Positions 13,019-28,493 of a stretch of 40,231 bases of DNA are shown here, one piece after another. The translations under genes and the position numbers were made by a program. The notes beneath the pieces are model-generated. The model was given only the letters and a program-made list of their open reading frames with translations. It ran no database searches and was not told where the DNA came from. This stretch comes from Bacteroidales bacterium (GTDB taxonomy: Bacteria > Bacteroidota > Bacteroidia > Bacteroidales > UBA932), in assembly GCA_017454265.1 (NCBI GenBank), contig JAFTDJ010000057.1, forward strand, positions 1-40,231. The letters run 5' to 3'. Position 1 is the stretch's first letter. The number at the start of each line of letters is the position of its first letter.

Positions 13019-13037
13019 ATTCGGGTACATTTAAATA

Positions 13038-14918
13038 TTACCAACCCGGATTCTGAGTCATTCCGTAGCCTTTGTTGATTTCAACGGCGGGAATGGGGGC
13101 GAGATACCATTTGGTGTCCCAGCTGTTGTACCATACTCTTGGAGGATAAGCATCCTTGAGCTTGTAGGTAAAGCTGGTGGCGTTCTTCTGCTTGTTGCCG
13201 GTGACTTCCAGACCCTGGAGCTTGGTTGTAAATGCGCCGGTAAGTCCCCAGCGTACCATATCGAACCAACGCACTTCCTCGAATCCGAACTCGAGGTCTC
13301 GCTCCAGCAGGACCGCTTCCCGGAACTGTTCCTTGCTCATACCTTCTGCAATGGCGGGAAGGCCTACGCGGGCGCGTACTGCGTTTACCCACGAATAAGC
13401 TTCAGCAGAGGGACCTCCGTCGGCCTCGTTGTATGCCTCGGCGGCGTTAAGCAGCACTTCTGCAAGACGCATAAGGCACCAGTGGGGAGCCACGTTGCGG
13501 TCTGCCTCGGTCTGGTAGATGAACTTCATCTGCAGGAAGCCGCTGTTGCCGTCCTGGAAGTTGGGGCTCTTGGCGTTCACGTAGTTTGCGCCCACTACGC
13601 CGTTCTTCCAGAGGTCTCCGGGAACGCAGAGGTTCTCGTACAGGCGGGGGTCGCGGGTCTCCGTGAAGGTGGCGTTGTCCACTTTGAGGTCACCTGCAGG
13701 GTCGCTCTTGAAGAAGGGCTGGCGGTCTGCTCCGGCGGCGGAAGGATGGTCCCAGTCGAAGTCGGCGGGGAAGGGGGTGCCGTCGGCGTAAGGGAAGCGG
13801 TTTACCCAGTTGAGGGTGCCGCTGCAGCCGAAGTCGTCCTGCAGCTTCATGTTCTTGTTGTGATAGCTGCTGCTGTTGCTCTTGCGGGTGGAGATAATGG
13901 TCTCGGTCGTGCCGCGGTCTCGGTAAGACTTCCTGTATGCAAGGCGGTAGTCCGCAGGCTGGCAGAACGTCGTGCCCGTAACCGGATCGACTCCCGTGGG
14001 CACTGCACTCACAAGCGAGTAGAAACCTCCTGTGCCCCAGGCGCCCATGAATTCGTCTGCCGCCTTCTTGGCCGAGGCCCACAGGGAGGCGTCGTATTTC
14101 TCGCCGTAGCTAACGTACTTGCCCATATTGTCCCAGTCTGCGGCATCTGCGTGCCAGGGCGTGTTGGAGTTGAAGGTGGGAGATGCTGCAAAGCAGAGTA
14201 TGCGAAGCTTGAGGCCCAGGGCGGCAGCCTTGGTAAGACGTCCGTCCTCCGCTCCGGTTACGTACCAGGGAAGGTCCGGCGCCGCTTCGTCGCACAGTTC
14301 CACGATGTAGTCTATGGTCTCCTTGAATGTGTTGCGGGGATACACCATCTTCTCGTCGGTCTGTACAGCGTGCTTGAGCAGGGGAACTCCTCCCAGGTAG
14401 CGTACCATATTGGCGTAGCCTATAGCTATGCACATCTTCGCCTCGGCCTTTTTGCGTGCGAGCTGTACCGGGTCGGGGTCGGGAATGCGGTCGGCGTTCT
14501 CCAGGAAGAGCCAGCCGTAACGGATGGCAGTGTAGTCTTTCTCGCTGCCGAAGCGGTAGGTCTCCCCGCCTGCCCCGTCACCGGAAATATTGGCGCCGAG
14601 AGCGCCTGTGTAGTACAAGTCGTTGGGGCCGTCTCCCTCTGTGTGCTTGTTGGATACAAAGTGATCCGTGATGGATTCGAGGATGTCTGAACCCATCTTG
14701 CTGTCCCAATCTGTTATGAGACCGTACGGAAGATTGTAATATGCGGTAGCCAGCACCTTGTCTGCGTCTTTGAGGGTTGCAAACAGGGTGTCCAGCGTGG
14801 CGCCGGATGTCTCGGGAGCCTTGCTCAGGCCCTCGTCACCGAGTTTGAGGCTTTCACAAGCGGCCGAACCCGCGACAGTCATCGCGAGGATGGCGAATAT
14901 CTGGATAAATCTTTTCAT
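13038..14918 (-). CDS. SusD/RagB-family nutrient-binding lipoprotein (pair 1)
   Basis: 626 residues. Signal peptide with lipobox GSAAC, mature N-terminus ESLKLGDEGLS. Family landmarks include AKMCIAIGYANMVRYLGGVPLLK, NAAEAYNEADGG, VNAVRARVGLPAI and LERDLEFGFEEVRWFDMVRWG, with a final YLAPIPAVEINKGYGMTQNPGW typical of SusD C-termini. It forms the cap of the transporter encoded 12 bases upstream. The two SusD proteins here are only distantly alike, so the pairs likely take different oligosaccharides or sizes. Confidence 0.93.
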   Translation of the reverse strand: MKRFIQIFAILAMTVAGSAACESLKLGDEGLSKAPETSGATLDTLFATLKDADKVLATAYYNLPYGLITDWDSKMGSDILESITDHFVSNKHTEGDGPNDLYYTGALGANISGDGAGGETYRFGSEKDYTAIRYGWLFLENADRIPDPDPVQLARKKAEAKMCIAIGYANMVRYLGGVPLLKHAVQTDEKMVYPRNTFKETIDYIVELCDEAAPDLPWYVTGAEDGRLTKAAALGLKLRILCFAASPTFNSNTPWHADAADWDNMGKYVSYGEKYDASLWASAKKAADEFMGAWGTGGFYSLVSAVPTGVDPVTGTTFCQPADYRLAYRKSYRDRGTTETIISTRKSNSSSYHNKNMKLQDDFGCSGTLNWVNRFPYADGTPFPADFDWDHPSAAGADRQPFFKSDPAGDLKVDNATFTETRDPRLYENLCVPGDLWKNGVVGANYVNAKSPNFQDGNSGFLQMKFIYQTEADRNVAPHWCLMRLAEVLLNAAEAYNEADGGPSAEAYSWVNAVRARVGLPAIAEGMSKEQFREAVLLERDLEFGFEEVRWFDMVRWGLTGAFTTKLQGLEVTGNKQKNATSFTYKLKDAYPPRVWYNSWDTKWYLAPIPAVEINKGYGMTQNPGW

Positions 14919-14930
14919 TGTGAGCCTGGT

Positions 14931-17900
14931 TTAGAAGTTGATGTTGAGGGCTATGTTGTAAGTCTTCACGAGAGGGTAGGTACCGTCGGAGTCGCTGGAC
15001 TTGGCCTCCGGATCCTGCAAGGTCATCTTGGAGAATGTGAGGAGGTTGTAGCCTGTGAACATTATTCCCACCGAGCCTATGCCCAGCTTGTCGAAGAACT
15101 TGTTGCGCCCGAAGGTGTAGCCGAAGCTGGCGCTCTTGAGGCGCAGGTAGCTGGCGTCTACGACCCACAGGGTGCTGTTTTCGGAGTTCCAGGGATAGTT
15201 GGTCTTGGTGAAGCGGGGAAGAGTTCCGTCTTCGCGCCCGGGGGCCCAGGGATTGTCGTTGTCTATCCAGCTGTTCTCTGCGAATATCTGAAGCAGTCCG
15301 CGGTGTCCCGAGTTGGTGAACGGTATGCGGTAGTCGGCGTTCCATACGCGGTTCACGTTGGTAGCCGCGAGCCAGTTGAGGCTCAGGTTGAAGCCCCTCC
15401 AGTTGAATTTCCAGTTGGAACCGAATACGTACTCCGGGCGGTCGGGATAGCCGGTGTACATTTTATCCAGGCCGTCCACCTTTCCGTCGGGAACGGGATT
15501 GCCGTTCTCGTCGAGCGCACCGCCTATGTCCTTGTACTTGCAGTCACCGGGATACACGGTGGTGGAAGGCTGCGGCAGCTCTGGCTTGAGGCGCTGGACA
15601 CCGTTTTCGTCGATGTAGAAGTCGTCTTTCTGGTACAGGCCGTCGTAGATGTACAGGAGGTGCCTGTTGGTCGGACCGCCGGTCTGAGCCTGGTAAGGCA
15701 TTGCGGGTGTAACCTCGTCCATGTTCACTATAGTGTTGCGGGCGAAGGTCACGTTGGCGTCTATGTCGTAGTAAAACTCGCCGATATGGTCTCTCCAGCC
15801 CACTTCCACTTCGTAACCCCTGTTTATCACTTCTCCGAGGTTCATATTGGGAACGCTGGTGGCGATGATGCCGGGTAGCGAGCGGGGCGAGATAAGGATG
15901 CCGGTGCGGTCTTCCCAGAACAGGTCTCCGCTGAAGTGGAGGCGCTTGCGGAACATGTCGAAATCTACACCCACGTTGGCTTTGAGTGCGGTTTCCCAGG
16001 TTACGCCGAGGTTGCCGGGAGTGCCCATGGCATAGCGGGGCACGCCGCTGGAGCCTGCGTCTCCGAAGTAGTAGGAGCCGTCCTCGTTCCATACGCCCTC
16101 CATATACATGAAACGGGCGGAGCTGCCGAGGTCGTTACCCACCTTACCTACTGAAGCGCGCAGCTTGAGGTAATCCATCCAGCTTGCCTTCTTGGCCCAG
16201 GGCTCTTCCGAGATGACCCATCCCAGGGAGATGGAGGGGAAGAAACCGTAGCGGGTCTTGCCTGGAGCGAAGTTCTCGCTTCCGTTGTAGCCGGCGCTCA
16301 CGTCCACAAGGTACTTGTCCATATAGCTGTAGGTGGCGCGTCCCACCCAGCCCACGTAACCGCGGGGCAGCCAGGTATAGTAGCTAGGGTAGTAGTCGCG
16401 GCTCTGGTTGTAGAGCAGCAGTCCGCTCACGTAGTGCCGTCCGCCGAACTTGCGGGCGTAGTCGAGGCGGGCCTCAAGGTACCAGGCCTTGTCGTCGTCT
16501 GAAGACTCGCTGTAGCTCAGTGGAGCGTTGCTGCCGGTAACCACATAGACATAGCTCTTGTCGAAGTCGGGATCGTTGATGGCCAGGCCGGAATCGTCGG
16601 CCCAGGACGCATATTCGAAAGTATAATGCAGGCCGCTGCCGCCGGTGTGCTTCTTGGTTATCTGCATGGAGGTGTCGTAACTTCCCTTGATGCCTGCGCT
16701 GAGGCCTTCGGTGATGAAGTCGAGCCTCTGGGTGAGGGTGACGTCCATGCCCAGGGTAGTCTTGTACTTGTTGGTATAGCCGGTCCAATAGTAGTATTCC
16801 CAGCCGTTCCACTTGGTGAGTCCGGAAGGGAGGGCGCTGGTGGATACGCTCGTGAAGGGCATTCCTTCGAGCACTCCGGGGCTTCCTACCGGGTGGGCCC
16901 AGAGCATCGTGAGGGTCCATATATTGTCCCTGTCTGTGTAGGGAGCCTGCGTGTCGCCTATGACTCCGCTGATGTTGAACTTCATGTCGGTGGTCTCCGT
17001 GAGCTTGAAGTCCAGGTTCGCGCGGTAGTTGTAACGGTTGTAGGCGTAGTTGTTGTTGTAAGTGACACCGGGAATCTGCTTTAGCAGACCGTTCTGGTAC
17101 ATGAAGCCCATGGAAACGAAGTAGCGCACTTTGTCGGAGCCGCCTGAGATGTTGATATTGTTCTTGGTCTGCAGGAAGGCCTTGCGGAACATCTCTTCGT
17201 TCCAGTTTGTACTGGGGAACATGATGGGGTCTGAGCCCGTGCGGTAGGCTTCGATTGCCTCAGGGGTGAAGTACAGCCCCTTGTCGGTCTTGCCGTCGTT
17301 CCACTGGTAAACATTGTAATAGCGGGCAAAGTCGTAGCCGGAGCTTTGCTTGATGTAAGACAGCGGTACCTGGGCGCCGGTGATGGAACTGACGGAAATC
17401 TTGGGTTTGCCGGCGTCGCCGCGCTTGGTGGTGACGATAATCACACCGTTGGCGCCTCGCACACCGAACACGGCGGTAGATGCTGCGTCTTTGAGGATGG
17501 ACAGGCTCTCGATTTCGTTTGGATCGACCGTGTTGATAGGACGCTCGACTCCGTCAACGAGGATGAGAGGGGTTGATGCACTCTCGCTCAGCGAACTCAC
17601 GCCTCGGATGTAAATCTTGGCGTAGTCCTCACCGGGCTGGCCGGTCTCCTGGACCGTCGAAACACCCGGCATCTGGCCGGCGAGCACGTTGGTAACGTCG
17701 GCTACAGGCGCTTTTACAAGAGCTTTCGCGTCGATGGTGGTAAGGGCTCCGGTTACCGTTGCCCTCTTCTGCGTACCGTAAGCGACGACTACCGTAGCTT
17801 CCAGAGACTCGGAATCCTCCTCGAGAATAATCACGATATCGCTTTGCTTCCCGACCTTTACCTCTTTGGAGACATAGCCCAGGGAAGCTGCTACGAGGAC

Positions 17901-18137
17901 GGAGTTCTCTCCGGGCACGGTAATCGAGAAGGCGCCGTCGATGTCTGTAGCGACACCGGTGGTCGTCCCCTTGATGGTTACGCCTGCACCGATGACCGGC
18001 AGCGACTGGTTGTCAAGCACCTTGCCTTTTACGGTAAAGCCGCGCTGCTGTGCATACGCGCCGCTTCCGCCGAAAAGTGTCAGCACCAGACATACCGCTG
18101 TTGCCAGCCATAAGAATCGTACTGCTTTTGGATTCAT
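14931..18137 (-). CDS. SusC/RagA-family TonB-dependent transporter (pair 1)
   Basis: 1068 residues, full family length. Signal peptide ends near GAYAQQ; a carboxypeptidase-regulatory-like domain follows (residues about 33-115: VKGKVLDNQSLPVIGAGVTI, ATDIDGAFSI). Next come the VVVAYGTQKRATVTGA signature and the plug domain (LILVDGVERPI, SILKDAASTAVFGVRGANG, VTTKRG) and a 22-strand-type barrel ending in YNIALNINF. It imports oligosaccharides across the outer membrane with TonB energy. It starts 28 bases after the GH18 gene ends, and I see no separate promoter in that gap. Confidence 0.95.
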   Translation of the reverse strand: MNPKAVRFLWLATAVCLVLTLFGGSGAYAQQRGFTVKGKVLDNQSLPVIGAGVTIKGTTTGVATDIDGAFSITVPGENSVLVAASLGYVSKEVKVGKQSDIVIILEEDSESLEATVVVAYGTQKRATVTGALTTIDAKALVKAPVADVTNVLAGQMPGVSTVQETGQPGEDYAKIYIRGVSSLSESASTPLILVDGVERPINTVDPNEIESLSILKDAASTAVFGVRGANGVIIVTTKRGDAGKPKISVSSITGAQVPLSYIKQSSGYDFARYYNVYQWNDGKTDKGLYFTPEAIEAYRTGSDPIMFPSTNWNEEMFRKAFLQTKNNINISGGSDKVRYFVSMGFMYQNGLLKQIPGVTYNNNYAYNRYNYRANLDFKLTETTDMKFNISGVIGDTQAPYTDRDNIWTLTMLWAHPVGSPGVLEGMPFTSVSTSALPSGLTKWNGWEYYYWTGYTNKYKTTLGMDVTLTQRLDFITEGLSAGIKGSYDTSMQITKKHTGGSGLHYTFEYASWADDSGLAINDPDFDKSYVYVVTGSNAPLSYSESSDDDKAWYLEARLDYARKFGGRHYVSGLLLYNQSRDYYPSYYTWLPRGYVGWVGRATYSYMDKYLVDVSAGYNGSENFAPGKTRYGFFPSISLGWVISEEPWAKKASWMDYLKLRASVGKVGNDLGSSARFMYMEGVWNEDGSYYFGDAGSSGVPRYAMGTPGNLGVTWETALKANVGVDFDMFRKRLHFSGDLFWEDRTGILISPRSLPGIIATSVPNMNLGEVINRGYEVEVGWRDHIGEFYYDIDANVTFARNTIVNMDEVTPAMPYQAQTGGPTNRHLLYIYDGLYQKDDFYIDENGVQRLKPELPQPSTTVYPGDCKYKDIGGALDENGNPVPDGKVDGLDKMYTGYPDRPEYVFGSNWKFNWRGFNLSLNWLAATNVNRVWNADYRIPFTNSGHRGLLQIFAENSWIDNDNPWAPGREDGTLPRFTKTNYPWNSENSTLWVVDASYLRLKSASFGYTFGRNKFFDKLGIGSVGIMFTGYNLLTFSKMTLQDPEAKSSDSDGTYPLVKTYNIALNINF

Positions 18138-18165: not shown

Positions 18166-19401
18166 TTATTGTATAGTAGTTTCTTTTCCGTACATGGCTT
18201 TCACCAGCGCCTTGAGCAGGCTCTGCTGGTCGTCGTCGTGGCGGTATTCCCAGAACATTGCGCCGAGGAGCCCCTTGCTCATGGCAAACTCTCCCTTGCA
18301 GGCAACGGATTCCGGGTCGTCGTAGCTGAGCAGGTTGTGTCCGGCTATGTCGGTAAGATATGGCACTTTGGCCACGTCGTCCCATTTGCGGATATTATAG
18401 CCGGTGACGTCTTTCTTGCCTTTTGCGTAGTAATTCTTTTCCAGGATGCTGGCCATTTCGTTGTAATTCACCTCGTACTCGTAAATCTTGACTGCCGGGT
18501 TTTTCTCTGCCTTGCCGTAGAAGGGGACTCCCAGGTTCTGCCTGTTCAGGGGAATGCCGGCCTTGAGGTGAAGCTCCACGCTTTCTTCGCAGCTGCGCTG
18601 GTTGAAAATGGTGCTGCGGTGCAGCGGGGAATTGTGCCCGCTCGGAGCGGCACCCATGTCGTAGGTCATCACGTTCACGTAATCTATGTACTGGATGGCT
18701 GTTTTCCAGTCTACGTACTTGGCGCTGGCAGAAGATGCGAAAGAGATGATTTTGCCCGTGCCTATGGTCTCGCGCAGCTCCTTCAGGAGGGTGTTGAAGT
18801 TGCGTGTGTCATTCGGGTCGGCTCCGGTCCCTTCTGCAGAATAGGTGGGGTACTCCCAGTCTATGTCGACTCCGTCCAGGCCGTATTTGTCCAGATGGCC
18901 CTTGACGCTCTCGCAAAACTCCTTGCGCTTGTCGGGATCCTTTGCCATCATTGAGAAACCGTCTGCCCTCATGCCCCATCCGCCAATCATCAGCATCACT
19001 TTGAGCTTGGGATTCCTGCTCTTGAGGTCCAGTACCTTCTGCATCAGCTCCGGCTTGGCGATTACAATGCCTCCGGTGCCGTTCGTAGGGTCTGCGAAAC
19101 GCCCGTGAGCGTAGTTGATGTGGGTAAGCAAGGTAACGTCGGGAAGACTGGGGGAGTTCTCGGTGTAGTATGCCAGCACGATTGGTGTCTGGCCTATGTC
19201 GGTACACAGGGTGCCGGTGCTTCCGGAGTTTTCGTTGTTGCCGTTGCCCGTATTGTCTTCTCCGTTGTCGCCGCCGGGAGTCTCGGTGCCGGGATCGGGG
19301 GGCGGCGGCAGGGTATTGCCGTTATCCGGCTTGTCGCAGGAAGATGCGCACAGAAACAGGGCCGCAAGGGCGCTGACCGTAATATACAGGAGTCTCTTCA
19401 T
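18166..19401 (-). CDS. GH18 chitinase-like surface lipoprotein (first copy)
   Basis: 411 residues. Signal peptide with a lipobox-like CASSC (Cys22), then a Gly/Asn/Pro/Asp-rich linker to about residue 64, then the GH18 barrel: LLTHINYAHGRF, VMLMIGGWG, catalytic DxxDxDxE in LDGVDIDWEYP (D176, D179, D181, E183), YVNVMTYDMG and MFWEYRHDD near the end. All catalytic acids are present. It is a paralog of the GH18 at 2508-3776, with a different linker and loop lengths. It follows GH20 with a one-base gap. Likely role: endo-cleavage of beta-1,4-linked GlcNAc at the cell surface. Confidence 0.92.
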   Translation of the reverse strand: MKRLLYITVSALAALFLCASSCDKPDNGNTLPPPPDPGTETPGGDNGEDNTGNGNNENSGSTGTLCTDIGQTPIVLAYYTENSPSLPDVTLLTHINYAHGRFADPTNGTGGIVIAKPELMQKVLDLKSRNPKLKVMLMIGGWGMRADGFSMMAKDPDKRKEFCESVKGHLDKYGLDGVDIDWEYPTYSAEGTGADPNDTRNFNTLLKELRETIGTGKIISFASSASAKYVDWKTAIQYIDYVNVMTYDMGAAPSGHNSPLHRSTIFNQRSCEESVELHLKAGIPLNRQNLGVPFYGKAEKNPAVKIYEYEVNYNEMASILEKNYYAKGKKDVTGYNIRKWDDVAKVPYLTDIAGHNLLSYDDPESVACKGEFAMSKGLLGAMFWEYRHDDDQQSLLKALVKAMYGKETTIQ

Positions 19402-19402
19402 A

Positions 19403-21544
19403 CTATTCGAGGGTCTTTAGGGTTTTCCATTCTTTGCTTCCCGGCCCAAGTACCGACACGTCGGTTTTGTTGCGCAGGGGATTCCAGCCGCCTTTGATAT
19501 TGAAGATGAAAACGGCTTCTACTTTGTGTACACCCTTTTCCAGAGCCAGTTCCGTATCCTGTCGGGAGTAGCGTTTTACGCTTCCGCGGGAATTGTCTAT
19601 AATCAGCTGGCCGTCAATCCAGACGGCGTCGCTGTCGGAGGAGAAGCGGTACACGCCTGTTTCCTTCACTTTGAAGCAGCCCTCTGCCCGTGCGGCATAG
19701 AAGCGGGTGGTGTCGGGCAGGTTGCGGTTGTAGGGCTCCAGAGCCACGAGGTCGCGGAGGCGCTCCAGTTCCACCTTGTGCCATTCCGCTCCCTGCAGGT
19801 CGTCTATGGTCCAGAACTTGCCGTCGGTGCGGCTGGCGCGAAGACCGCCGAAGACTTCTGCTTCCGGCAGGGCCGCCATCGGCTTCATCTTGCGCAGCCT
19901 GATGGTGCGCACCGGGCTCATCCGGCCGTAAGAAGTTATGGAAGCGGTTTTTACCAGGGCCTCTGAGCTGAAAGAAAGGGGGCCTGCATATTCTTCGGAT
20001 GCCGCCGAGGGCTCAGTGCCGTCCAGGGTATATACAATGCGCTCCGGGCGGGTGGTGGTGAGCTCAAGCGTGGTTTCGTCTGTAAAGGCAAGCTTGTCGC
20101 AAGAACCGCCCGGCTGCTCCGGAATGGGAATGTGGTAGTTGATTCCGCGTGCGTCGAGGTCCATGCAGGCATAATCTACCCGGCGGTTGAAGTCTGCCCA
20201 GTCCTTGCGCTCCGGCTGCGTCCAGGCAATTTCGGCAAGGGCGAAAGCACGGGGGAAGAGCATATACTGGCGGTGGCTGTCGGAATAAATGTACTCAGAC
20301 CAGTTGTTGCACTGCACGCCTTTCACGTGGTGGCCTTTGCCTTGTTTCTGCAGTTCTTCGGGTACGGGGTCGTAGGAATACACCTTTTCCAGGGTCGTGT
20401 AGTGGCCGATGGAGGCCGGTTCTACCTTGGGGTCGCCCTGAAAATGGTCGAAATACATACCGTCGGTACCGGGAGTCATAATGACGTCGTGCCCCTCGCC
20501 GGCCGCCTTGATGCCGCCCTTCTCGCCTCTCCAGCTCATCACGGTGGCGTTGGGACTCAGGCCTCCCTCGAGTATTTCGTCCCAGCCGATGAGCTTGCGG
20601 CCGTATTTGGCCAGTATGCCCTCCATACGGTGTACGGCATAGCTCTGGAGCTTTTCTTCCGCGGTGCCCTGGGCGTCGCTCACAAGCCCGAGTTCCTTGA
20701 TGCGGGCCTGGCAGAGCGGGCAGTTCTCCCAGCGGCCCTTGCGGCACTCGTCGCCGCCGATGTGTATGTATTCGCCCGGGAACAGCTCAACTACTTCCGC
20801 TATTACGTCTTCCAGGAATTCGAAGGTGCTTTCCTTGCCGGGGCAGAGCGAGATGTCCGGCGTGCCCCAGGTGTAGAAAGTGCTCACATCCTCGCCCGTG
20901 CAGCTCAGGTGCGGGTACGCGCGTATGGCGGAAATGGCATGCCCGGGCATCTCAATCTCCGGCACCACCGTCACGTGGCGCTCGGCTGCATAGGCAACCA
21001 CGTCCCGTATCTGCTCCTGGGTGTAGAACCCACCGTACACGCTGCCGTCGAACTCGGTCCTGTAGGCGCCCACTTCCGTAAGCCGGGGGTATTTCTTGAT
21101 TTCTATGCGCCACCCTTGGTCGTCGGTGAGGTGCCAGTGCATGGTATTCATCTTGTATCGGGACAGGATGTCTATTTGCTTCTTCACCTCATCTACCGGG
21201 AGGAAATGGCGGCACGGGTCTATATGGAAGCCCCTCCAGGAGAAGCGCGGAGCGTCTTTTATCTTGACGCAAGGCACCTTGCCGTCGGGTCCGGTAAGCT
21301 GGTCCAGGGTCTGGCGTGCGTAGAAGAGTCCGGCTTCGTCTGCGGCTACGGCTTTTACTCGGCAGCGGCTGACGGTGAGGGTATATCCCTCGGGCGCTAT
21401 CCCCGATGCGGGGTCCAGTTTGAATTCCACTTTTCCCTTCGAACGGTTCATGTCAAAGACGCCTTCGCCCACTTCGACGGAAGCGGGCTTGGGGATAACA
21501 TTTATCATAGCTGCAGAGAGCAGTGTGAGAAGCAGTTTCATCAT
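19403..21544 (-). CDS. GH20 beta-N-acetylhexosaminidase with C-terminal PA14-like domain
   Basis: 713 residues. N-terminal GH20b-type domain (to about 95), then the catalytic barrel starting WRGFHIDPCRHFLP with WHLTDDQGWRIEIKKYP; the catalytic pair D265-E266 lies in HIGGDE. Residues about 505-555 form a chitobiase-type C-terminal domain (VYTLDGTEPS) and about 570-705 a PA14-like module (GVYRFSSDSDAVWIDGQLI). PA14 modules often bind glycan. The enzyme removes terminal GlcNAc (or GalNAc) from oligosaccharides made by the GH18 enzymes. A hydrophobic N-terminus suggests export to the periplasm, although the signal peptide is short. The start overlaps the stop of the fusion gene by 4 bases (ATGA), so translation is probably coupled. 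Confidence 0.92.
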   Translation of the reverse strand: MMKLLLTLLSAAMINVIPKPASVEVGEGVFDMNRSKGKVEFKLDPASGIAPEGYTLTVSRCRVKAVAADEAGLFYARQTLDQLTGPDGKVPCVKIKDAPRFSWRGFHIDPCRHFLPVDEVKKQIDILSRYKMNTMHWHLTDDQGWRIEIKKYPRLTEVGAYRTEFDGSVYGGFYTQEQIRDVVAYAAERHVTVVPEIEMPGHAISAIRAYPHLSCTGEDVSTFYTWGTPDISLCPGKESTFEFLEDVIAEVVELFPGEYIHIGGDECRKGRWENCPLCQARIKELGLVSDAQGTAEEKLQSYAVHRMEGILAKYGRKLIGWDEILEGGLSPNATVMSWRGEKGGIKAAGEGHDVIMTPGTDGMYFDHFQGDPKVEPASIGHYTTLEKVYSYDPVPEELQKQGKGHHVKGVQCNNWSEYIYSDSHRQYMLFPRAFALAEIAWTQPERKDWADFNRRVDYACMDLDARGINYHIPIPEQPGGSCDKLAFTDETTLELTTTRPERIVYTLDGTEPSAASEEYAGPLSFSSEALVKTASITSYGRMSPVRTIRLRKMKPMAALPEAEVFGGLRASRTDGKFWTIDDLQGAEWHKVELERLRDLVALEPYNRNLPDTTRFYAARAEGCFKVKETGVYRFSSDSDAVWIDGQLIIDNSRGSVKRYSRQDTELALEKGVHKVEAVFIFNIKGGWNPLRNKTDVSVLGPGSKEWKTLKTLE

Positions 21545-24500
21545 TTGATATATTTACGTACAAGCTGTCCTATCTCGGCATTTTCGTGTATTCCGGCAAA
21601 GTCCTCGGCGTGAGGCCCGTATGCATACACCGGCACAAGTATTCCGTTGTGCCCTTTGGTGGAAAAGTGTACCTGCACCTTGCGCTCTTCCAGGCTTCCC
21701 TTGAGCAGGGTGAGGCCGCCGCAGGCATGGTCGGCCGTTACCACTACGAGCGTCTGCCCGTCTTTCTCGGCCCACTTGAGCACTTCCCCTATGGTGCGGT
21801 CGAAGTCGAAGAGTTCTTCTACCACGTTGCCTATCTTGTGGCGGTGGCCGTAGTCGTCTATTTGCGAGCCTTCCACCATCAGGAAAAAGCCTTTGGGGTT
21901 GTCGAGCATCTCGATTGCCTTCATTGTGCATTCGGGAAGAACGGGACCGCGCTCAGTCACGGGAGGAAGGTCCAGCGGGCCGAAGAGTCCGAGGAACTTG
22001 TCGCCGCCGGCGCCCCGTATGTCTTCCAGCTTGTCCACGAAAGTGTACCCCCTGGCCTTCATCTCTTCCACGAGGTTGCGGCCGTCGGACCGGGAGGTCC
22101 AGAACTGGAGGCCACCGCCGGAGATGAAATCCACTCCGGAATCTACATATTGGGCGGCGAGGCCTTCCTCGTCACGTACGGTCGGAGAGTGTCCGCAATA
22201 GTCGGCAGGGGTGGCGTCGTTGATACGGCATACCACGGCTACTCCTGTTTTCTTGCCCTTCTTCTGGGCCGCCTTGAGCACGGATTCCGCGGGGTTGCCC
22301 TCTTTGTCGAGACCTATGTAGTAGTAATTTGTCTTCTCGCCTATGGCCAGGGCCGTGCCGCCGGCGCAGGAATCGGTGACCAGGGCGTTGGCGGCCGTGG
22401 TGCGGGAAGTGCCGAAATAAGGCATCTGTTCCATGTTGAGCTTTCCGCCGTTGCATACCCAGCCGCAGCTTACCTGCTCGAAGCCCATGCCGTCGCCTAT
22501 CATGAAGATGATGTTCTTGACCTTCTTGCCCTTGGGCTGTTGCACGCTCACCACGTCGTAGGTCTCTTCTTTGGAGTACTGGTCGTCTTTGCTGAAGTTG
22601 TAAGTCGCGAAGGCCGAACGGTCGCGGCGGAGCGAGTCGGGAGAACTCACCATGGCGGCGCTTGCGTTCCAGCCGTCAAGTGTGAGCACGGCGCTCTTGT
22701 GCCCCTCGGGCAGGCGGCAGCGCAGGACTTTCTTCTGTCCGGGGTACAAGGTTACGAAATTGTCTGACCACAGCACGGCCGGAATGAGCTCGCCGGCGCT
22801 GTCTTTGGCTTTCACAATGTTCTGGTATGCAATGGTTTGCGTCTCGTTGGAGAGAGTTACTTCATAGCCTCCTGGTACGGCGGACGTCTGCATGGACACC
22901 TTGGTGGCGGGAAGTGCGGAGACGAAACACAGGTCGGGGTACTTTGCCACGGGAGTGCCTGCCCAGTCTGTCTTGTCCCACGCGTGCACGGTGTTCTCTG
23001 CGGGCAGGCAATAGAAATTGTCTGCAACGCTCCTGCCCTCCGCGTCCAATATCTCCAGGCTGAGGAAGCAGGGGCCCGTTACGTTCTCGAATATCTTGCG
23101 GGGACTGCGGCGGCGGAATTTGGCCGTCTTGCTCTCCTCGCGCACGAGCGTACCTTCGGGGGAGAAAACTTTCATGCGGGCGGTGAGTTCGCAGCCGGAA
23201 ACCGCATCATCTACGCTGTAAACGCACGCGTCTTTATAGTTGTAAACCAGCTGCAGCGGCGCGCATGCCTTCTTGGTGCCGTAGTATCCGGCGGTAGGTA
23301 CAAGATACCAGTCGTATAGCTGCCAGTACAGCGAGGGCCAGGCCGAGTTGAGCATCCACTGCACTATGCCGGTGGTTTCGGGCACGTTGCACCTGAATGC
23401 CTCGAACATCGCGCGGGTTCCGTCATAATCCACGGCGTGTGCCCTGTGCATGAATTCACCAATGTTCTCAGCGGCACCATACTCGCCTGCGACGGTGCGC
23501 GCAATGGTGGCGGTGGTGTTCATATGGGAAGCGGACGCTGTGCAGTGATAGTCCCACACTTCGTCCAGCGGCCACAGATGGTCCTCGCCTACCATACGGC
23601 GCACAGACTCCAGCTGGGGGATGTTGGTGCCGATTCCGGTCTCGGTGTTGAAGCCGTAGGCGCCGCCGTGTCTGGTGTCGGTGTACCAGTAATCCGGACC
23701 CACGTACTCGTAGGGCCCGGCCATTTTCATTCCGGAGGGCCCGCCGAACTTGCTTGTGAGGCCCTTGGCGGAGCATACGTACGAACGGTATTCGAGTTTG
23801 TTGAATTCTGCCATGTAGGCTTCTTCCAGGCGGGCGTTGGGGATGCGGTCGCTGCCCGTGAGCCAGCAGATGAGCGAAGGGTGGTTGCGCAGGCGCACTA
23901 TCTGGTCGTGGAAATAACGTACGGCCAGAGCTTCCCATGCCGGTTCGTTTATGCAGCCGAAGCCCTTTGTGACGGGGAGTCCGCAATATTCTTCCCATTC
24001 CCACTGGCAGCTGAAGCCCATGACGGCCAGGATGCCGAGTTCGTCGCAAAGGTCATAGACCGAGTCGTCTTTGCCCCACACGTTCTCGAAGCGTATGCTG
24101 TTGAGGCCCATGTCGGCTACGAATTCAACTTGTGCGCGTATGCTCTCGGGAGTGTCCTGCATAAAGATGTCGTCTGTCCAGCCGGCAGATTTTATCAGCA
24201 CCTCACGGCCGTTGAGCACGAACTGGCGGTGGCCGTTTCCGTCTATGCGGGAGCGTATGTCGCGCAGTCCGAAGCGCACGCTCCTGCTGTGCGAAACGCT
24301 CCCGGAGCCGGCGGGAATGAATGAAACCTTGAGCGTGTACATCTCCGGCCTGCCCATTTCGCGGCTCCACCAGATGCGGGGGTAACGCACTTCTTCAGTG
24401 ACGGTTACGACCTTGCTTTCACCTGCCGCCAGCTCCACTTCCTTGCGGTATCCGCCCCCGTCGAAAACCCCCTGCATCACACCCTTCACGGCTGCGTTGC

Positions 24501-25134
24501 TGCGGTTTACGAGACTTGCCTGTACGGTTATGGATGCGTGCTTGAGGTCCTCAGGGTTTACATTGGGGCGCACGAATACGTCCTGAACCTGCACGTCGGG
24601 AGTGGTAATAAGCTCCACCTTTCGCAGTATGCCCATGGTTTCGTCCACCGGCCGGGGGTTCCAGTCTACATATCCGTGGTTGAGAGAAACCGCGGGTGCC
24701 TTGAATACCGTAACCTGCAATTTGTTCTGCTTCTTGGCGAGAAGCGTCGTAACGTCGAACTCACGTACGCAGAAGGGTCCCACGGTAGTGTCTGCCGAGG
24801 CTATGAGCTTGCCGTTGAACTTGATTTCCGCACTGTAGCCCAAAGATTCGAAGCGCAGTATGTGCTTCTGCCCTTTCTTTGTGGGGAAACTTGTGCTGAA
24901 AACCCATGGGCTGTCGAATACGGACTTGTCTATTTCTTTGTATTTAAGGCCTTCCAGTACGTTTCCGGAGCCCAGTGCGCCGGCTTCGTTGAGCGCCCCT
25001 GCAACCGTGCAGGGTACTGTTACGTCGTAGGAACGGGAATCGCCCTGGCGCTGCATTTTCCAGTTCACAAGATCTTCTGCAAAGCCGGAAAGGCAGATGC
25101 AGAGAAGTACAAGCAGGGAAATAGTTCGTTTCAT
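21541..25134 (-). CDS. Fusion of GH2 exo-beta-D-glucosaminidase-like enzyme and alkaline phosphatase
   Basis: 1197 residues in one uninterrupted frame. Signal peptide (about 1-19), GH2 sugar-binding domain (25-180), Ig-like domain (185-290), GH2 barrel (295-615), further beta domains (620-830), alkaline phosphatase (about 868-1197). In the barrel, W424-LTGSD has an Asp (D429) where most GH2 enzymes have the acid/base Glu, as in CsxA-type exo-glucosaminidases; E498 in FNTETG is the expected nucleophile. The phosphatase half keeps the core set: D881 in IGDGMG, nucleophile S922 in VTDSCAGGTA, DATPA, E1088, D1093 and H1097 in VEGSQIDDYGH, D1135-H1136 in TADH, and H1162. Both halves look active and periplasmic. 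It lies between the ROK kinase (6 bases) and GH20 (4-base overlap). A fused phosphatase suggests a phosphorylated glucosamine-containing substrate; that step is inference. Confidence 0.9.
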   Translation of the reverse strand: MKRTISLLVLLCICLSGFAEDLVNWKMQRQGDSRSYDVTVPCTVAGALNEAGALGSGNVLEGLKYKEIDKSVFDSPWVFSTSFPTKKGQKHILRFESLGYSAEIKFNGKLIASADTTVGPFCVREFDVTTLLAKKQNKLQVTVFKAPAVSLNHGYVDWNPRPVDETMGILRKVELITTPDVQVQDVFVRPNVNPEDLKHASITVQASLVNRSNAAVKGVMQGVFDGGGYRKEVELAAGESKVVTVTEEVRYPRIWWSREMGRPEMYTLKVSFIPAGSGSVSHSRSVRFGLRDIRSRIDGNGHRQFVLNGREVLIKSAGWTDDIFMQDTPESIRAQVEFVADMGLNSIRFENVWGKDDSVYDLCDELGILAVMGFSCQWEWEEYCGLPVTKGFGCINEPAWEALAVRYFHDQIVRLRNHPSLICWLTGSDRIPNARLEEAYMAEFNKLEYRSYVCSAKGLTSKFGGPSGMKMAGPYEYVGPDYWYTDTRHGGAYGFNTETGIGTNIPQLESVRRMVGEDHLWPLDEVWDYHCTASASHMNTTATIARTVAGEYGAAENIGEFMHRAHAVDYDGTRAMFEAFRCNVPETTGIVQWMLNSAWPSLYWQLYDWYLVPTAGYYGTKKACAPLQLVYNYKDACVYSVDDAVSGCELTARMKVFSPEGTLVREESKTAKFRRRSPRKIFENVTGPCFLSLEILDAEGRSVADNFYCLPAENTVHAWDKTDWAGTPVAKYPDLCFVSALPATKVSMQTSAVPGGYEVTLSNETQTIAYQNIVKAKDSAGELIPAVLWSDNFVTLYPGQKKVLRCRLPEGHKSAVLTLDGWNASAAMVSSPDSLRRDRSAFATYNFSKDDQYSKEETYDVVSVQQPKGKKVKNIIFMIGDGMGFEQVSCGWVCNGGKLNMEQMPYFGTSRTTAANALVTDSCAGGTALAIGEKTNYYYIGLDKEGNPAESVLKAAQKKGKKTGVAVVCRINDATPADYCGHSPTVRDEEGLAAQYVDSGVDFISGGGLQFWTSRSDGRNLVEEMKARGYTFVDKLEDIRGAGGDKFLGLFGPLDLPPVTERGPVLPECTMKAIEMLDNPKGFFLMVEGSQIDDYGHRHKIGNVVEELFDFDRTIGEVLKWAEKDGQTLVVVTADHACGGLTLLKGSLEERKVQVHFSTKGHNGILVPVYAYGPHAEDFAGIHENAEIGQLVRKYIK

Positions 25135-25140
25135 TGTTCT

Positions 25141-25965
25141 TTAGTTCAGGAGTGATGCGCCGAGCAATGCCACGTCTTCCTGGGGCATGACCTGGATCTG
25201 GAGCTTTTCCAGTACGTGGCTGTAGGGGTAGCTGTTGCGCAGGGATTTGTTCATGGATTCTTTAAAGTGCTTGTATGTGTTGGCGATTCCGCCGCCGAGC
25301 ACGATGCAACCCGGGTCGTATGCATACATCACAACGGAGAGCAGTTCTCCAAGGTGCCTTCCGAACTCCTCGAAGAAGGAAAGGGCTTCCTTGTCGCCGG
25401 ACTCCGCCGCATTGCTTGCGTCTTTGGGCATCCAGCCGTTGCTCTCGAAAAATTTCTTGGAACAGAACGATTCGTAGTCTTTGCCGTTGTAGGGTATGGA
25501 CCCCACCTCGCCGGCGCCGCAGTTTGCCCCGCAAAGCAGCTGGCTGCCCACCATGATACCGAGTCCGGTGCCCGTGCCGAGCGTAACCCCGGCTATTACA
25601 TCGTGCTTTTCTCCCAGCCGTGCCGCTGCTCCGAGCGCAAAGCAGTTGGCGTCGTTGTTCACGCTCACCGGGATGCCGAAATGCCACTCCAGGATTTCCT
25701 TCAACGGGACTTCTTTCCATGAGGCAATGTTCATGGCGTTGTAAACTATGCCGCGCTTTACGTCGACAAGGGTTGGTACGCCTATGCCTATGCTTTTAAC
25801 TTCCGGTGTGATTATTTCCTCTATACGCTGCGTGAGGTAGTCGATGGTTTCTTCCAGTACGGCGTCTTTGGGGAAGGACGGCACGCGGTTCATCTTTACA
25901 ATCCGGGTACCCTCGACCAGGCCCAGACTGATTGTGGTGCCGCCAATGTCTATTCCGAGTAGCAT
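25141..25965 (-). CDS. ROK-family sugar kinase (probable GlcNAc/glucosamine/glucose kinase)
   Basis: 274 residues, short of the usual 290-320. The ATP-binding LGIDIGGTT motif is at the N-terminus; GIGVPTLVD, NNDANCFALGAA with the conserved catalytic Asp, and GVTLGTGTGLGIMV follow. The usual ROK zinc-binding CxCGxxGCxE segment is replaced by CGANCGAGEVGSIPY, a form known for some Bacteroidota ROK kinases. No signal peptide, so cytoplasmic. It would phosphorylate the monosaccharide released by the GH2/GH20 enzymes, most likely GlcNAc or GlcN. Besides read-through it has its own promoter (TAAATTTG at 25993-26000) with a regulator site upstream. Confidence 0.88.
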   Translation of the reverse strand: MLLGIDIGGTTISLGLVEGTRIVKMNRVPSFPKDAVLEETIDYLTQRIEEIITPEVKSIGIGVPTLVDVKRGIVYNAMNIASWKEVPLKEILEWHFGIPVSVNNDANCFALGAAARLGEKHDVIAGVTLGTGTGLGIMVGSQLLCGANCGAGEVGSIPYNGKDYESFCSKKFFESNGWMPKDASNAAESGDKEALSFFEEFGRHLGELLSVVMYAYDPGCIVLGGGIANTYKHFKESMNKSLRNSYPYSHVLEKLQIQVMPQEDVALLGASLLN

Positions 25966-26028: not shown

Positions 26029-26055
26029 TTTGCGTATTTATGCACCCAATTTGCG
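26029..26055 (-). promoter_or_regulatory. Putative operator site C of the XylR-like regulator
   Basis: Minus strand: CGCAAATTGG, seven bases, AATACGCAAA. Half-sites starting with CGCAA lie 21 bp apart in direct repeat, as in sites A and B. The first half-site overlaps the last codons and stop of the regulator gene (R-K-L-G-A-stop), so the regulator's own coding end doubles as its putative binding site. Confidence 0.55.
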
Positions 26056-27204
26056 CAATTCTCTGCGTCTGAATTCAGATGGAGTGCAGCCTTTTATGGC
26101 TTGGAAACGGCGGGAAATGCTTTTGGTGTCGGGCTCGTCGAGACGGGCCGCGATATTGGCTATGGAGTCTTTGCTGGAGAGCAGGAGCTCGGCAAAGCGG
26201 TTCATGCGCAACTCGCTGATATAGCGGTAAATGGTTGTTCCTGTCACCTTCAGGAAGCGCTGCTCCAGGAGTCTCCTGGAAAGGGGTACCTGCCGCAGGA
26301 CGTCTTCTACCAAAATCTTGTGGTCCACATTGGCTCCGATGTATTGCAGCGCGGTAAGGATGGCGCTGTCCTTTGTGGCGAAGATGTTCGACGACATTCG
26401 CGGCACTATGCTGAGCGGCCGCAGGATTACGTCTTCTCCAAGGTAAGAAGGGTCTTTTGTCATCCGTTCCGCCATCTTTGCGGCTATATAGCCTCCGCCT
26501 TCTATGTCTATATTCACTGATGTGAGGGCCGGATTGGACATGTTGCACAGCACTTCGTCGTTGTCTACTCCCATAATTGCCACTTCACCGGGAATCTTGA
26601 TGCCGAAGGAGTTGCAAGCCTGTATGAGGATACTTCCCTGGTTGTCGTCGCATGCCATTATGGCCACGGGCTTCGGCAGGCTCTGCAGCCATTCCTGGAG
26701 CATGGGCAGGTCGTATGCCCAGAGGGCGTCTATGCGCTGTTCGTTGTAAAGCGAAAAACTGTCTCCGAAGCCTGCCTCGTTTATACGTTTGCGAAAACCG
26801 TTGCAGCGCTCGTCGGACCAGCATACGTCGCGATAGCCGAAGAATGCGAAATTCTTGAATCCGCGCGACAGGAAACGGCGCGCCACTATCTCTCCGGTCT
26901 GGTCGTAGTCTGCGGTGATATTCGGTATGCTGTCGAATTTCTTGATATAATCCTGTGCCATCGCCACTATGCCTTCGCGCCGGAATACCGTTACGTCGTC
27001 CTGTGGGTCGAACTGACCTATCACCACGTCTGCTTTCCATTGCTTGGCCCATTCCACAACCCCATCCAGGCCGACTTTGTGCTTATATGCTGGCGGCATT
27101 TTACAAACGACCCACGGCTCGGTCTGCTCGGCATACTGCATTACGCCGCGCAGTAGCCTGTATGCGAACTGTTCCGTAAAGTCGGTAATGAAAAGCAGTC
27201 TCAT
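26038..27204 (-). CDS. XylR-like transcription regulator: sugar-binding domain plus AraC-type DNA-binding domain
   Basis: 388 residues, close to E. coli XylR (about 392). Residues 1 to about 275 resemble the periplasmic-binding/LacI-type ligand domain (FITDFTEQFAYRLLRGVMQYA, FAFFGYRDVCWSDERCNGF, AIMACDDNQGSILIQACNSF, EVAIMGVDNDEVLCNMSNPALTSV). Residues about 285-388 are an AraC-type double helix-turn-helix (VPLSRRLLEQRFLKVTGTTIYRYISELRMNRF, IANIAARL, SISRRFQAIKGCTPSEFRR). This architecture senses a sugar and usually activates transcription. It is encoded inside the operon, three bases after the phosphatase gene, so it is likely autoregulated. Three matching direct-repeat sites in the window are its probable targets. 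Confidence 0.9.
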   Translation of the reverse strand: MRLLFITDFTEQFAYRLLRGVMQYAEQTEPWVVCKMPPAYKHKVGLDGVVEWAKQWKADVVIGQFDPQDDVTVFRREGIVAMAQDYIKKFDSIPNITADYDQTGEIVARRFLSRGFKNFAFFGYRDVCWSDERCNGFRKRINEAGFGDSFSLYNEQRIDALWAYDLPMLQEWLQSLPKPVAIMACDDNQGSILIQACNSFGIKIPGEVAIMGVDNDEVLCNMSNPALTSVNIDIEGGGYIAAKMAERMTKDPSYLGEDVILRPLSIVPRMSSNIFATKDSAILTALQYIGANVDHKILVEDVLRQVPLSRRLLEQRFLKVTGTTIYRYISELRMNRFAELLLSSKDSIANIAARLDEPDTKSISRRFQAIKGCTPSEFRRRELRKLGA

Positions 27205-27207: not shown

Positions 27208-28470
27208 TCAAAGGTTTTTAACGTCGTTTCTGAGTATGGATTCCCTGAGGTCTTCCCACTTGTAATAGGGACCGCCCTCCAGCGTAATGATAGTGGCTTC
27301 CTGCTCGTTGAGAAAGCATTTTACCAGCACGTCTCCTTTGCAGTTGCGGTAAAACACCATCTGCAGATTGCAGGCGAAGGGACAGCGGAGCACTCCGGGC
27401 CAGTCGCGGCTGCCCACCGCGTCGAGTCTTTCGGCTATGCCCTTGATTCCTATCCTGGAAGAAAAGGCAAGCAGCTGGTACTCATGGCCGTAGCGAAGGT
27501 CTGCGGCACAATCTTGGGTGGCAATTGCCTCGTCTGCCTTGGCGATTACGTCTTCTACAAGGTAGTGTACCGGCTCCATACGCTTGTCTCCGTACTCGCG
27601 CGAGTTGCACTGGCGCAGGTACATGTTCATTCCTATCACTTGCGAGTACCAGTACAGGTCGTCTTCCGTGAAGCAGCGCAGCAGGCTGTCGTCCATGTCG
27701 CAGGCGGCGCTCACGGAGGCCAGGTCGAAGGTGTCCTGCATAAGCTTCACGGGGTTGCCGGAAAGCTCACGGGCCCTGGACGGATCTTTAAGGAGTTTTG
27801 CCAGGAAGGCGGCGGTATCGGGAACGTGGGATGCGCGCCTCTCGTCCAGGGTGGCATAAACCTGCTTCTTGATGTCTTTGGTGTCTTCCGTGCTGCAGAT
27901 GAGCATTATCTTTTCTCCGGTGTCCCAGCTGAGGTCCAGGCGCGGGTCGAGCGAGAGCAGCTCGGCGGTGGCGGCAGCCATACTTACAAGGCACCTCGGA
28001 GCAGTGCTGGATATTGCCCGCACCCGGCGGCTGCCCTTGCGGAATACGCTTTTGTATTTGCGGTACATCCGGGCTGCAATTTCCCTGTGCTCGCGGGCTC
28101 CGCGTGGCGTGAGGCGTCCGTCCATTCCGTTGTGCACAGCCACCAGACGGTTCACCATTCCGTGCGCCGCCTCTCCTTCCGGGGTGAGGTTGCCGGCGTC
28201 GGCCAGTCTGTCCCAGCGTTCCACAAGGCTTGCATAATTGTCCCTGGACCACTCGGTACGGCTGCCGTGGCGGCCATAGTGGCTGATATAGAAAGGCTTA
28301 TAGCCGGCGGGTACGGGGGTTTCCGGCGTTTTGACGTATTCGTAAGGACTGGTATTTACGCCTGCGCGGTGCAGGTTGCCGTGTATAAGGGCAACTATTT
28401 CGGGATTTTTCTGCTCCTGCGCCACCGCCGCAAGCGGTACCAGAAGGAGCAGCGCCAAGAGTTTCTTCAT
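27208..28470 (-). CDS. Secreted histidine-type acid phosphatase (histidine phosphatase superfamily, branch 2)
   Basis: 420 residues from the ATG at 28470, chosen for its standard signal peptide (MKKLLALLLLVPLAAVAQ); an in-frame ATG at 28482 is also possible. The catalytic RHG motif (R67, H68, G69 in HYGRHGSR) carries the phospho-accepting His. H329-E330 in RYGHE probably corresponds to the proton-donor HD/HAE motif seen in histidine acid phosphatases and inositol-phosphate phosphatases. It acts in the periplasm or at the surface on an organic phosphate ester. It is the first gene of the PUL, so phosphate removal seems to be part of the pathway. The exact substrate cannot be read from the sequence; phytate-like and sugar phosphates are both known for the superfamily. 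Confidence 0.85.
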   Translation of the reverse strand: MKKLLALLLLVPLAAVAQEQKNPEIVALIHGNLHRAGVNTSPYEYVKTPETPVPAGYKPFYISHYGRHGSRTEWSRDNYASLVERWDRLADAGNLTPEGEAAHGMVNRLVAVHNGMDGRLTPRGAREHREIAARMYRKYKSVFRKGSRRVRAISSTAPRCLVSMAAATAELLSLDPRLDLSWDTGEKIMLICSTEDTKDIKKQVYATLDERRASHVPDTAAFLAKLLKDPSRARELSGNPVKLMQDTFDLASVSAACDMDDSLLRCFTEDDLYWYSQVIGMNMYLRQCNSREYGDKRMEPVHYLVEDVIAKADEAIATQDCAADLRYGHEYQLLAFSSRIGIKGIAERLDAVGSRDWPGVLRCPFACNLQMVFYRNCKGDVLVKCFLNEQEATIITLEGGPYYKWEDLRESILRNDVKNL

Positions 28471-28493
28471 CGGTATCAGCATTAGTCGTTATG

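Follow-up and report, generated by a model that had tools for sequence, protein, structure and literature searches.

One minus-strand gene in the window (the whole 40,231-nucleotide stretch of Bacteroidales DNA analysed here) joins a glycoside hydrolase of family GH2 to an alkaline phosphatase of family PF00245. The residues that mark both halves are conserved, the gene lies in an amino-sugar locus, and fused forms of the same two genes are scattered over the tree of its relatives. We propose, with a probability of about 0.48, that the product would be a bifunctional periplasmic enzyme trimming glucosamine and phosphate from imported chitin- or chitosan-like oligosaccharides. Three observations support a functional tie of the phosphatase to amino-sugar hydrolysis: the adjacency of the two genes, their repeated fusion, and, in relatives, a second, unrelated fusion of a chitinase with a phosphatase.

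The open reading frame (21541–25134, minus strand, ATG start) translates into 1197 codons without an internal stop, and Pfam finds domains of both enzymes in it. This confirms the single frame for two enzymes described in a sequence-only reading of the DNA, which had not given the strand. The GH2 half covers residues 1–823 (22666–25134), the junction residues 824–850 (22585–22665) and the phosphatase half residues 851–1197 (21541–22584). In the first half, Pfam places a GH2 N-terminal domain (residues 25–152), a GH2 Ig domain (181–291), a weakly matched GH2 TIM barrel (304–443, 22.8 bits against a cut-off of 21) and an Ig_GlcNase domain (724–823). The second contains an Alk_phosphatase domain (873–1142 in the better of two stretches, E 3e-68), and the protein scores 231 bits for PF00245 against a gathering cut-off of 24.4. 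Because it begins with a stretch that we judged by eye to be signal-peptide-like, MKRTISLLVLLCICLSGFAE, the protein is probably secreted into the periplasm. A check for a frameshift or an assembly join found neither, and we reject both artefacts because the same full-length fused frame recurs in separate assemblies from the genus.

The protein matches CsxA of Amycolatopsis orientalis (PDB 2vzs) over residues 64–830 (E 3e-107) and TAB5 alkaline phosphatase (PDB 2w5v, an entry that we take to be TAB5) over residues 858–1194 (E 4e-59), values that together exclude chance similarity. CsxA aligns to the GH2 part alone, whereas in the window protein a phosphatase directly follows the Ig_GlcNase domain. 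In the alignment, E350, S428, D429 and E498 are the equivalents of CsxA E394, S468, D469 and E541, and all four are invariant across the 80 GH2 rows, a few of which are duplicates. Roles for E394, S468 and D469 are given in passages of PMC6566704; that paper and PMC12243196, in the parts cited here, have E394 contacting the C2 amine, and the latter uses a Glu at this position to mark the glucosaminidase subfamily GH2_16. GH2 and Ig_GlcNase homology, a Ser-Asp acid/base, a Glu nucleophile and an amine-contacting Glu are all present, so that assignment as a CsxA-type exo-β-glucosaminidase of GH2_16 is well supported by sequence; the earlier reading had reached the same enzyme without E350. We do not favour a β-mannosidase, because the E394 position holds Glu rather than Trp (PMC12243196, same parts).

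Like TAB5, the phosphatase half is a small PF00245 enzyme with the same serine and metal ligands. The set S922, D881, T975, E1088, D1093, H1097, D1135, H1136 and H1162 is found in 57 of 57 rows, namely those of the 59 phosphatase rows that exceed 330 residues. All ten residues named in the sequence-only reading were correct and are identical in eight of eight aligned fused proteins. Its description of a complete alkaline phosphatase holds for the serine and the metal ligands but not for the active-site Arg (Arg166 of the E. coli enzyme): TAB5, a separate chain of 375 residues, has this Arg, as do 51 of the 57 rows, whereas the window and five close relatives have Val (V986). These six rows all fall within one fully supported clade, and the position after the Val is Arg in five of them and His in L067. 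In the parts of PMC3145672 cited here, the Arg binds phosphate, its loss strongly cuts activity, and it is one factor separating alkaline phosphatases from NPP diesterases; SPAP, an alkaline phosphatase without it, still prefers monoesters. Because V986 replaces a phosphate-binding Arg, the window half may differ from a standard monoesterase, which lowers that claim for the window enzyme and not for the fusion family as a whole.

Purifying selection acts on both halves. Against L023, L024, L025 and L031, four measured pairs of the V986 clade, dN/dS is 0.11–0.21 for the GH2 half and 0.05–0.07 for the phosphatase half; in comparison with L026 and L027, which are more distant, the GH2 half is saturated or at 0.25 and the phosphatase half at 0.14–0.17. 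The linker, like both halves, is also well below 1. The phosphatase of this subclade might therefore have changed its specificity, for example towards phosphodiesters, since its low ratios argue against decay, the Val is confined to one clade that keeps every metal ligand, and the lost Arg helps to discriminate the two enzyme classes. The neighbouring Arg might substitute for the missing one in five of the six proteins, however, and SPAP manages monoesters without it (PMC3145672, same parts), so we hold such a change, which would be compatible with the proposed bifunctional enzyme, to be possible but on the unlikely side.

The fusion gene belongs to an operon of 15 genes, all on the minus strand, with gaps of −16 to 72 bases save one of 275. 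A GH20 β-N-acetylhexosaminidase gene (19403–21544) overlaps it by 4 bases; the best solved relative of its product is 6q63, which we take to be B. thetaiotaomicron BT0459, from an N-glycan and not a chitin locus. Beyond lie a GH18 chitinase-like lipoprotein (18166–19401, motif DGVDIDWE), a first pair of SusC-like transporter (14931–18137) and SusD-like protein (13038–14918), and a second pair, whose SusC (10307–13030) has an NCBIfam match and no Pfam match at 0.001 and whose SusD lies at 8593–10293. Three probable surface glycan-binding lipoproteins come next, two with BACON domains (7115–8563 and 5570–7111) and one without clear family (3761–5554, 597 residues, sub-threshold Pfam matches only), and then a second GH18 lipoprotein, GH18b (2508–3776, motif DGVDLDWE). 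The last gene (355–2232), for a lipoprotein of 625 residues with no Pfam match and no clear family, may lie outside the operon because the 275-base gap separates it from GH18b. On the other side of the fusion gene are a ROK-family sugar kinase of glucokinase or GlcNAc kinase type (25141–25965), a regulator with a sugar-binding Peripla_BP_3 domain and an AraC-type HTH (26038–27204), and a MINPP-like histidine phosphatase (27208–28482). The last, a histidine phosphatase by sequence, resembles MINPP (PDB 4fdu and kin; 4fdu is presumably from B. thetaiotaomicron) in its RHGSR motif and is a distant relative of it: matches to MINPP chains of solved structure have E values of about 1e-29, and the score for His_Phos_2 is 21.7 bits, below the cut-off of 23.6. 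GPI anchors and plant GIPCs, substrates suggested by this gene, are not favoured, their GlcN(Ac) being α-linked.

The clustering of two SusC/D pairs with catabolic enzymes and a regulator makes this a polysaccharide utilization locus (PUL). As for its target, the lipid A backbone (GlcN β-1,6 GlcN bisphosphate), teichoic acid with β-GlcNAc and phosphate-bearing poly-N-acetylglucosamine each combine β-linked GlcN or GlcNAc with phosphate and would match the trio of GH2, GH20 and phosphatase. Any of them as the substrate seems to us very improbable, however: both GH18 proteins carry chitinase-type motifs, the best solved matches of the one tested are chitinases, among the 15 operon genes (two without clear family) we saw no Pfam family that we would assign to the hydrolysis of lipid A acyl chains or of Kdo, and the two SusC/D pairs resemble ChiUL, the chitin locus of Flavobacterium johnsoniae (PMC5127042, in the parts cited here). 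ChiUL as presented there shares with the window locus the two pairs, GH18 and GH20 (its chitobiase), but differs in having NagB, a two-component system and a secreted ChiA of multimodular build, where the window locus has a sugar-binding AraC-type regulator, a GH2 glucosaminidase and phosphatases. Because no multidomain ChiA, two-component system or NagB was found among the 15 scanned operon genes, we regard the locus as one that would work like ChiUL without filing it as one. The word phosphatase does not occur in the text of the ChiUL paper (PMC5127042). CE15-GH8 and other multicatalytic enzymes of PULs (PMC8417218, in the part cited here) likewise place two catalytic domains in one polypeptide, but the partner in the window fusion is a phosphatase and not a glycosidase or carboxylic esterase.

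The company of the GH2 gene differs with the presence of a phosphatase. We compared 76 GH2 loci, having first taken out 14 stretches that were duplicates or overlapped others; 20 have no PF00245 phosphatase in the fetched stretch, some of these being cut by contig ends. GH18 was present in 29 of the 56 stretches with a phosphatase and in 0 of the 20 without, GH20 in 48 against 9, and SusC in 43 against 4. For MINPP-like genes the contrast (31 of 56 versus 6 of 20) is not significant (p 0.07), and their co-occurrence with PF00245 is too weak to serve as proof of a phosphorylated substrate; the window's own genome has four PF00328 matches.

The phosphatase half might instead serve phosphate supply, freeing phosphate from any periplasmic organic phosphate with no substrate common to the two halves; the pairing would then reflect phosphate demand, also of the ROK step, during growth on chitin-rich material. 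TAB5-type phosphatases are broad, the MINPP-like neighbour would fit phytate or inositol phosphates, and the window's PF00245 enzyme could be the general phosphatase of the cell, because just one such gene was found in its genome, which is 76% complete. The adjoining regulator, on the other hand, has a sugar-binding domain and no phosphate sensor, and relatives fuse two unrelated phosphatase families to two amino-sugar glycosidases. Several relatives, G027 and G028 for instance, also carry a further PF00245 gene elsewhere, so that the GH2-linked one is not their sole copy. Taken with these points, supply as the whole explanation appears unlikely.

Of the 400 genus genomes scanned, 21 have a full-length GH2-PF00245 frame among the matches listed, best first; samples of 395 genomes each from the phylum and from the class yielded no such fusion beyond the window's. 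In the genus, phylum and class scans no more than two candidates were scored in each genome, at cut-offs of 1e-60, 1e-60 and 1e-150, respectively. Fusion is the minority state in these genomes and also among the tree rows chosen (22 of 59), where loci were picked from the best GH2 matches and fractions describe those loci, not the genus. Most of the genomes are incomplete and contigs break off within loci, so that a gene missing close to the end of a contig does not count as evidence.

The tree holds 59 of the 80 GH2 rows, those that are not fragments and whose fetched stretch includes a phosphatase (57 of the 59 are distinct, two being duplicates). Its 22 fused and 37 unfused rows need six changes of state, all six forced by starred branches. 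A single fused clade, as expected from one origin, was rejected by the tree test, and within one sub-branch, too, the six fused rows fail to form a single clade (p 3e-6). Because the fused forms are not one clade and six changes are required, the fusion probably arose repeatedly. A history of fewer gains followed by re-splitting is formally compatible with the tree, though demanding, because re-splitting requires a new stop, a new start and a new signal peptide.

The concern that homologs might always be separate proteins with unrelated neighbours does not hold, since fusions recur and the halves are adjacent genes in 33 of the 37 unfused rows, the phosphatase having its own signal peptide. 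Four of the adjacent pairs (L098, L104, L116 and L119) overlap by 67–256 bases through upstream start calls; in L041, L042, L118 and L123 the two genes are not adjacent in that order. The adjacency survey passed over L035, L064, L065, L066, L070, L071 and L058. Where the window protein has its junction, adjacent split relatives have a stop codon and, after a few bases, the phosphatase signal peptide, and alignment gaps in the DNA of four other fused lineages, set against their split kin, remove the stop, the spacer and the signal-peptide start. Spacing of −13 to +31 bases in 29 of the 37 unfused rows makes such fusion mechanically easy, and small in-frame deletions might occasionally join tight, co-transcribed neighbours without benefit, as the coexistence of fused and split forms in the close sisters L078 and L087 would suggest. 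Yet the adjacency is itself widely retained, dN/dS stays well under 1 in the linker as in both halves, and the window's fused group (12 rows, support 81, not starred) extends down to 63% identity among the matches listed and so is not fleeting. We consider near-neutral joining improbable also in view of other fusions in the genus, a GH2-GH20 protein found once and a GH18-PF13350 protein that covers both domains and occurs in 29 of 300 genomes. An intact HCSAGRDRTG motif is present in the one GH18-PF13350 protein inspected; 14 of the 29 share a contig with a GH2 gene among the GH2 matches listed, 13 of them within 32 kb. This second fusion is a feature of relatives only, because the window's own genome has no PF13350 match.

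For the proposed bifunctional enzyme we infer the following order of steps, together with the cell location, activities and phosphorylated substrate that it assumes. Surface GH18 lipoproteins would cleave a chitin- or chitosan-like polymer of β-linked GlcNAc and GlcN, and the two SusC/D pairs would bring the oligosaccharides in. GH20 would take off terminal GlcNAc and the GH2 half terminal unacetylated glucosamine, with D429 as acid/base, E498 as nucleophile and E350 as amine contact by analogy with CsxA. The phosphatase half would strip off phosphate that these oligosaccharides, or the products made from them, carry or are associated with; the exo-glycosidases could then continue, and the free sugar would be taken up and phosphorylated again by the ROK kinase. 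Phosphate may be carried by glucosamine residues or block the glycosidase, the two options raised in the sequence-only reading.

No rumen glycan with phosphorylated GlcN is known to us, and to our knowledge phosphate has rarely been considered as a decoration of chitin-like polymers for gut bacteria to remove. Titles and abstract openings in the open literature searched, outside which most subscription journals lie, describe no GH2-phosphatase or GH18-phosphatase fusion. From the side of evolution, the repeated fusion of the same two genes, alongside that of a chitinase with an unrelated phosphatase, is evidence that removing phosphate and releasing amino sugars go together, and it hints at phosphate-bearing amino-sugar material. 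Tentatively, members of this Bacteroidales genus, some of which come from ruminant stomachs, might live on an undescribed gut glycan, chitin- or chitosan-like and phosphorylated or tightly complexed with phosphate, using a dedicated glycosidase-phosphatase set: GH2-PF00245 fused several times, GH18-PF13350 in about a tenth of sampled genomes, and a phosphatase of shifted specificity in the window's clade after loss of the Arg. The question becomes concrete: which phosphate-bearing amino-sugar polymer do these bacteria meet, chitosan-phosphate of fungal walls being one candidate, and are carbon, nitrogen and phosphate harvested from it at once?

Stand-alone PF00245 loci have mixed contexts, with neighbours such as DUF4832/DUF4874, AXE1 and a sugar-phosphate mutase, and one of them (L128) carries GH92 and Exo_endo_phos.

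The GH2 exo-glucosaminidase-phosphatase fusion proposed by the sequence-only reading is confirmed: the joined frame is genuine, it recurs among relatives and it sits in an amino-sugar locus; relatives also carry a parallel chitinase-phosphatase fusion. The gene is one stop-free frame of 1197 residues on the minus strand (25134-21541). The GH2 half (residues 1-823) consists of an N-terminal sugar-binding domain, a GH2 Ig domain, a TIM barrel and an Ig_GlcNase domain, and its closest solved relative is the exo-beta-D-glucosaminidase CsxA. The PF00245 alkaline phosphatase half (residues 851-1197) is closest among solved structures to 2w5v, which we take to be TAB5 alkaline phosphatase. Every domain comes from a known family; we know of no precedent for the GH2-phosphatase combination or for its recurrent origin. 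Searches of an open-access library, judged by titles and the opening lines of abstracts, listed no description of a GH2-phosphatase or a GH18-phosphatase fusion. All ten active-site residues named beforehand are correct in the window protein. A residue alignment adds E350, which corresponds to CsxA E394; in excerpts of two papers, that CsxA residue contacts the amine of glucosamine (PMC6566704; PMC12243196). All 80 GH2 sequences compared (a few of them duplicates) share E350, S428, D429 and E498, whether or not a phosphatase partner is present.

A frameshift or an assembly join between two genes could also have produced such a frame. The fused frame is real, however: it recurs, identical in position and gene order, in loci L023-L027 and L031, fetched from public assemblies of relatives, two of which come from yak omasum and water buffalo reticulum by their assembly titles. 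Red deer is among the sources of relatives with two separate genes. With at most two candidates scored per genome, a stop-free frame spanning both halves was found in 21 of 400 genomes of the genus, the window's included; in two more (G395 and G084) it is cut by a contig end, and in nine others a match over both halves with one internal stop proved to be separate neighbouring genes. Also with at most two candidates scored per genome, the phylum and class samples (395 genomes each) yielded no fused match besides the window's, and there was none in 24 genomes from other families of the order.

How the fusion arose can be read from the unfused relatives. We built a tree from 59 GH2-plus-phosphatase sequences (57 distinct; 22 fused, 37 unfused) by a quick IQ-TREE search under LG+G4. 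In 29 of the 37 unfused cases the two genes lie -13 to +31 bases apart; in four more they are adjacent, the overlap being an artefact of the ORF finder's choice of start, and in four they are apart. The separate phosphatase carries a signal peptide of its own, after which the mature protein starts with a sequence like DSLDRNRSKYATY; in the fused forms the end of GH2 reads directly on into this mature start. In DNA alignments of the junction, covering four fused lineages other than the window's (L075, L077, L078 and L079) and their split kin, gaps fall over the stop, the spacer and the first part of the signal-peptide region. The tree requires six state changes, and six are forced by its starred branches alone; the window's group of 12 fused sequences (support 81) is not starred. 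A single fused clade was 1190 log-likelihood units worse (p-AU 6e-58), and although the exact p is not to be relied on, the group having been seen beforehand and the search being quick, its rejection is not close. In locus L100 (genome G135) the GH2 gene crosses the junction and stops ~29 residues beyond the phosphatase's mature start; it looks like a once-fused gene that has lost its second half. No GH20, GH18 or SusC of this locus lies alongside within the fetched stretch.

The phosphatase half had been called complete. Its serine, its Thr975 and every metal ligand are indeed present and identical in 57 of 57 sequences, but the position of TAB5's active-site arginine is occupied by V986. The window shares this valine with L023, L024, L025, L031 and L067; the remaining 51 sequences have arginine, which we read from the alignment as the Arg166 of the E. 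coli enzyme. Excerpts of one paper report that mutating the active-site arginine strongly lowers alkaline phosphatase activity, that this residue is one factor setting these enzymes apart from diesterases, and that SPAP, which lacks it, still favours monoesters (PMC3145672). Between the window and L023, L024, L025 and L031, dN/dS is 0.05-0.07 in the phosphatase half, below the 0.11-0.21 of the GH2 half, which argues that the phosphatase is not decaying.

The fusion lies in a run of 15 genes, all on the minus strand between 28482 and 355, spaced -16 to 72 bases apart with a final gap of 275. In order, these encode a MINPP-like histidine phosphatase (RHGSR motif; under the Pfam cut-off, E ~1e-29 to solved MINPP chains), a regulator with a sugar-binding domain and an AraC-type HTH, a ROK kinase, the GH2-phosphatase, a GH20, a GH18, SusC, SusD, SusC, SusD, two BACON lipoproteins, a 597-aa lipoprotein, a second GH18 and a 625-aa lipoprotein. 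By eye, lipoprotein-like signal sequences are present on the two GH18, two SusD and two BACON proteins and on those of 597 and 625 aa, while the GH2-phosphatase, the MINPP-like protein and probably the GH20 have ordinary ones. As described in excerpts (PMC5127042), the F. johnsoniae chitin locus likewise has two SusC/D pairs, GH18 and GH20; the window locus differs in including a GH2 glucosaminidase together with phosphatases, and in having no multimodular ChiA, two-component system or NagB.

We then compared gene company in 76 fetched loci with such a GH2, drawn from best hits after exclusion of 14 duplicate or overlapping stretches; the counts are rough, given contig ends and kinship among loci. 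GH18 was present in 29/56 loci with the phosphatase vs 0/20 without, GH20 in 48/56 vs 9/20 and SusC in 43/56 vs 4/20, so the phosphatase partner accompanies the polymer-degrading form of the locus. The MINPP-like gene (31/56 vs 6/20) did not differ significantly (p 0.07).

In such a locus GH18 would act at the cell surface, SusC/D would bring in the oligosaccharides, GH20 and the GH2-phosphatase would work in the periplasm, and the ROK kinase would act inside the cell. Phosphate carried by the oligosaccharides, or by material bound to them, would best fit phosphate removal here. In nature, the zygomycete wall is one precedent for chitosan that tightly retains phosphate: in excerpts of one study, the alkali-insoluble wall of Rhizomucor pusillus contains at least 17% phosphate, and its authors suggest a chitosan-phosphate complex (PMC2996746). 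Alternatively, the phosphatase half may serve phosphate supply, a serious rival because the window genome shows only one PF00245 gene.

A second phosphatase fusion occurs in relatives. At L041:10297-12447 (G026), a locus of this type has a GH18 that runs on into a PF13350 tyrosine-phosphatase-type domain with its HCSAGRDRTG motif intact. GH18-PF13350 matches over both domains occur in 29 of 300 genus genomes (G026, G080, G265, G258, G260 and 24 others); 14 of the 29 share a contig with a GH2 among the matches listed, and in 13 of these the two are no more than 32 kb apart. No PF13350 match turned up in the genome of the window. Two different amino-sugar glycosidases are thus each tied to a phosphatase, and the two phosphatase families are unrelated.

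Other joins were seen in relatives. A single 1422-aa frame (L093:8398-12666, G243) combines two exo-enzymes, GH2 glucosaminidase and GH20 hexosaminidase, and a 1269-aa frame next to a SusC gene (L124:6479-10288, G723) combines a SusD domain with a PF00245 phosphatase. A phytase-like/SdiA-regulated domain is added to the MINPP-like phosphatase in L121:15208-17166 and L075:780-2702, and to a GH2 in L127:8766-11963 (G260); in L069:15832-17790 this domain is above the Pfam threshold and the MINPP-like part is matched by BLAST only. Two 608-aa phosphatases adjoining SusC-like genes (L129:9434-11260 and L138:9495-11321) have an N-terminal extension with a weak GDPD_2 match. Three MINPP-like genes stand in tandem beside the locus regulator in L121:15208-19738. 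Finally, a SusC locus with a PF00245 phosphatase, an Exo_endo_phos protein and a GH92 alpha-mannosidase (L128:8632-13681, G653) is possibly a phosphomannan locus.
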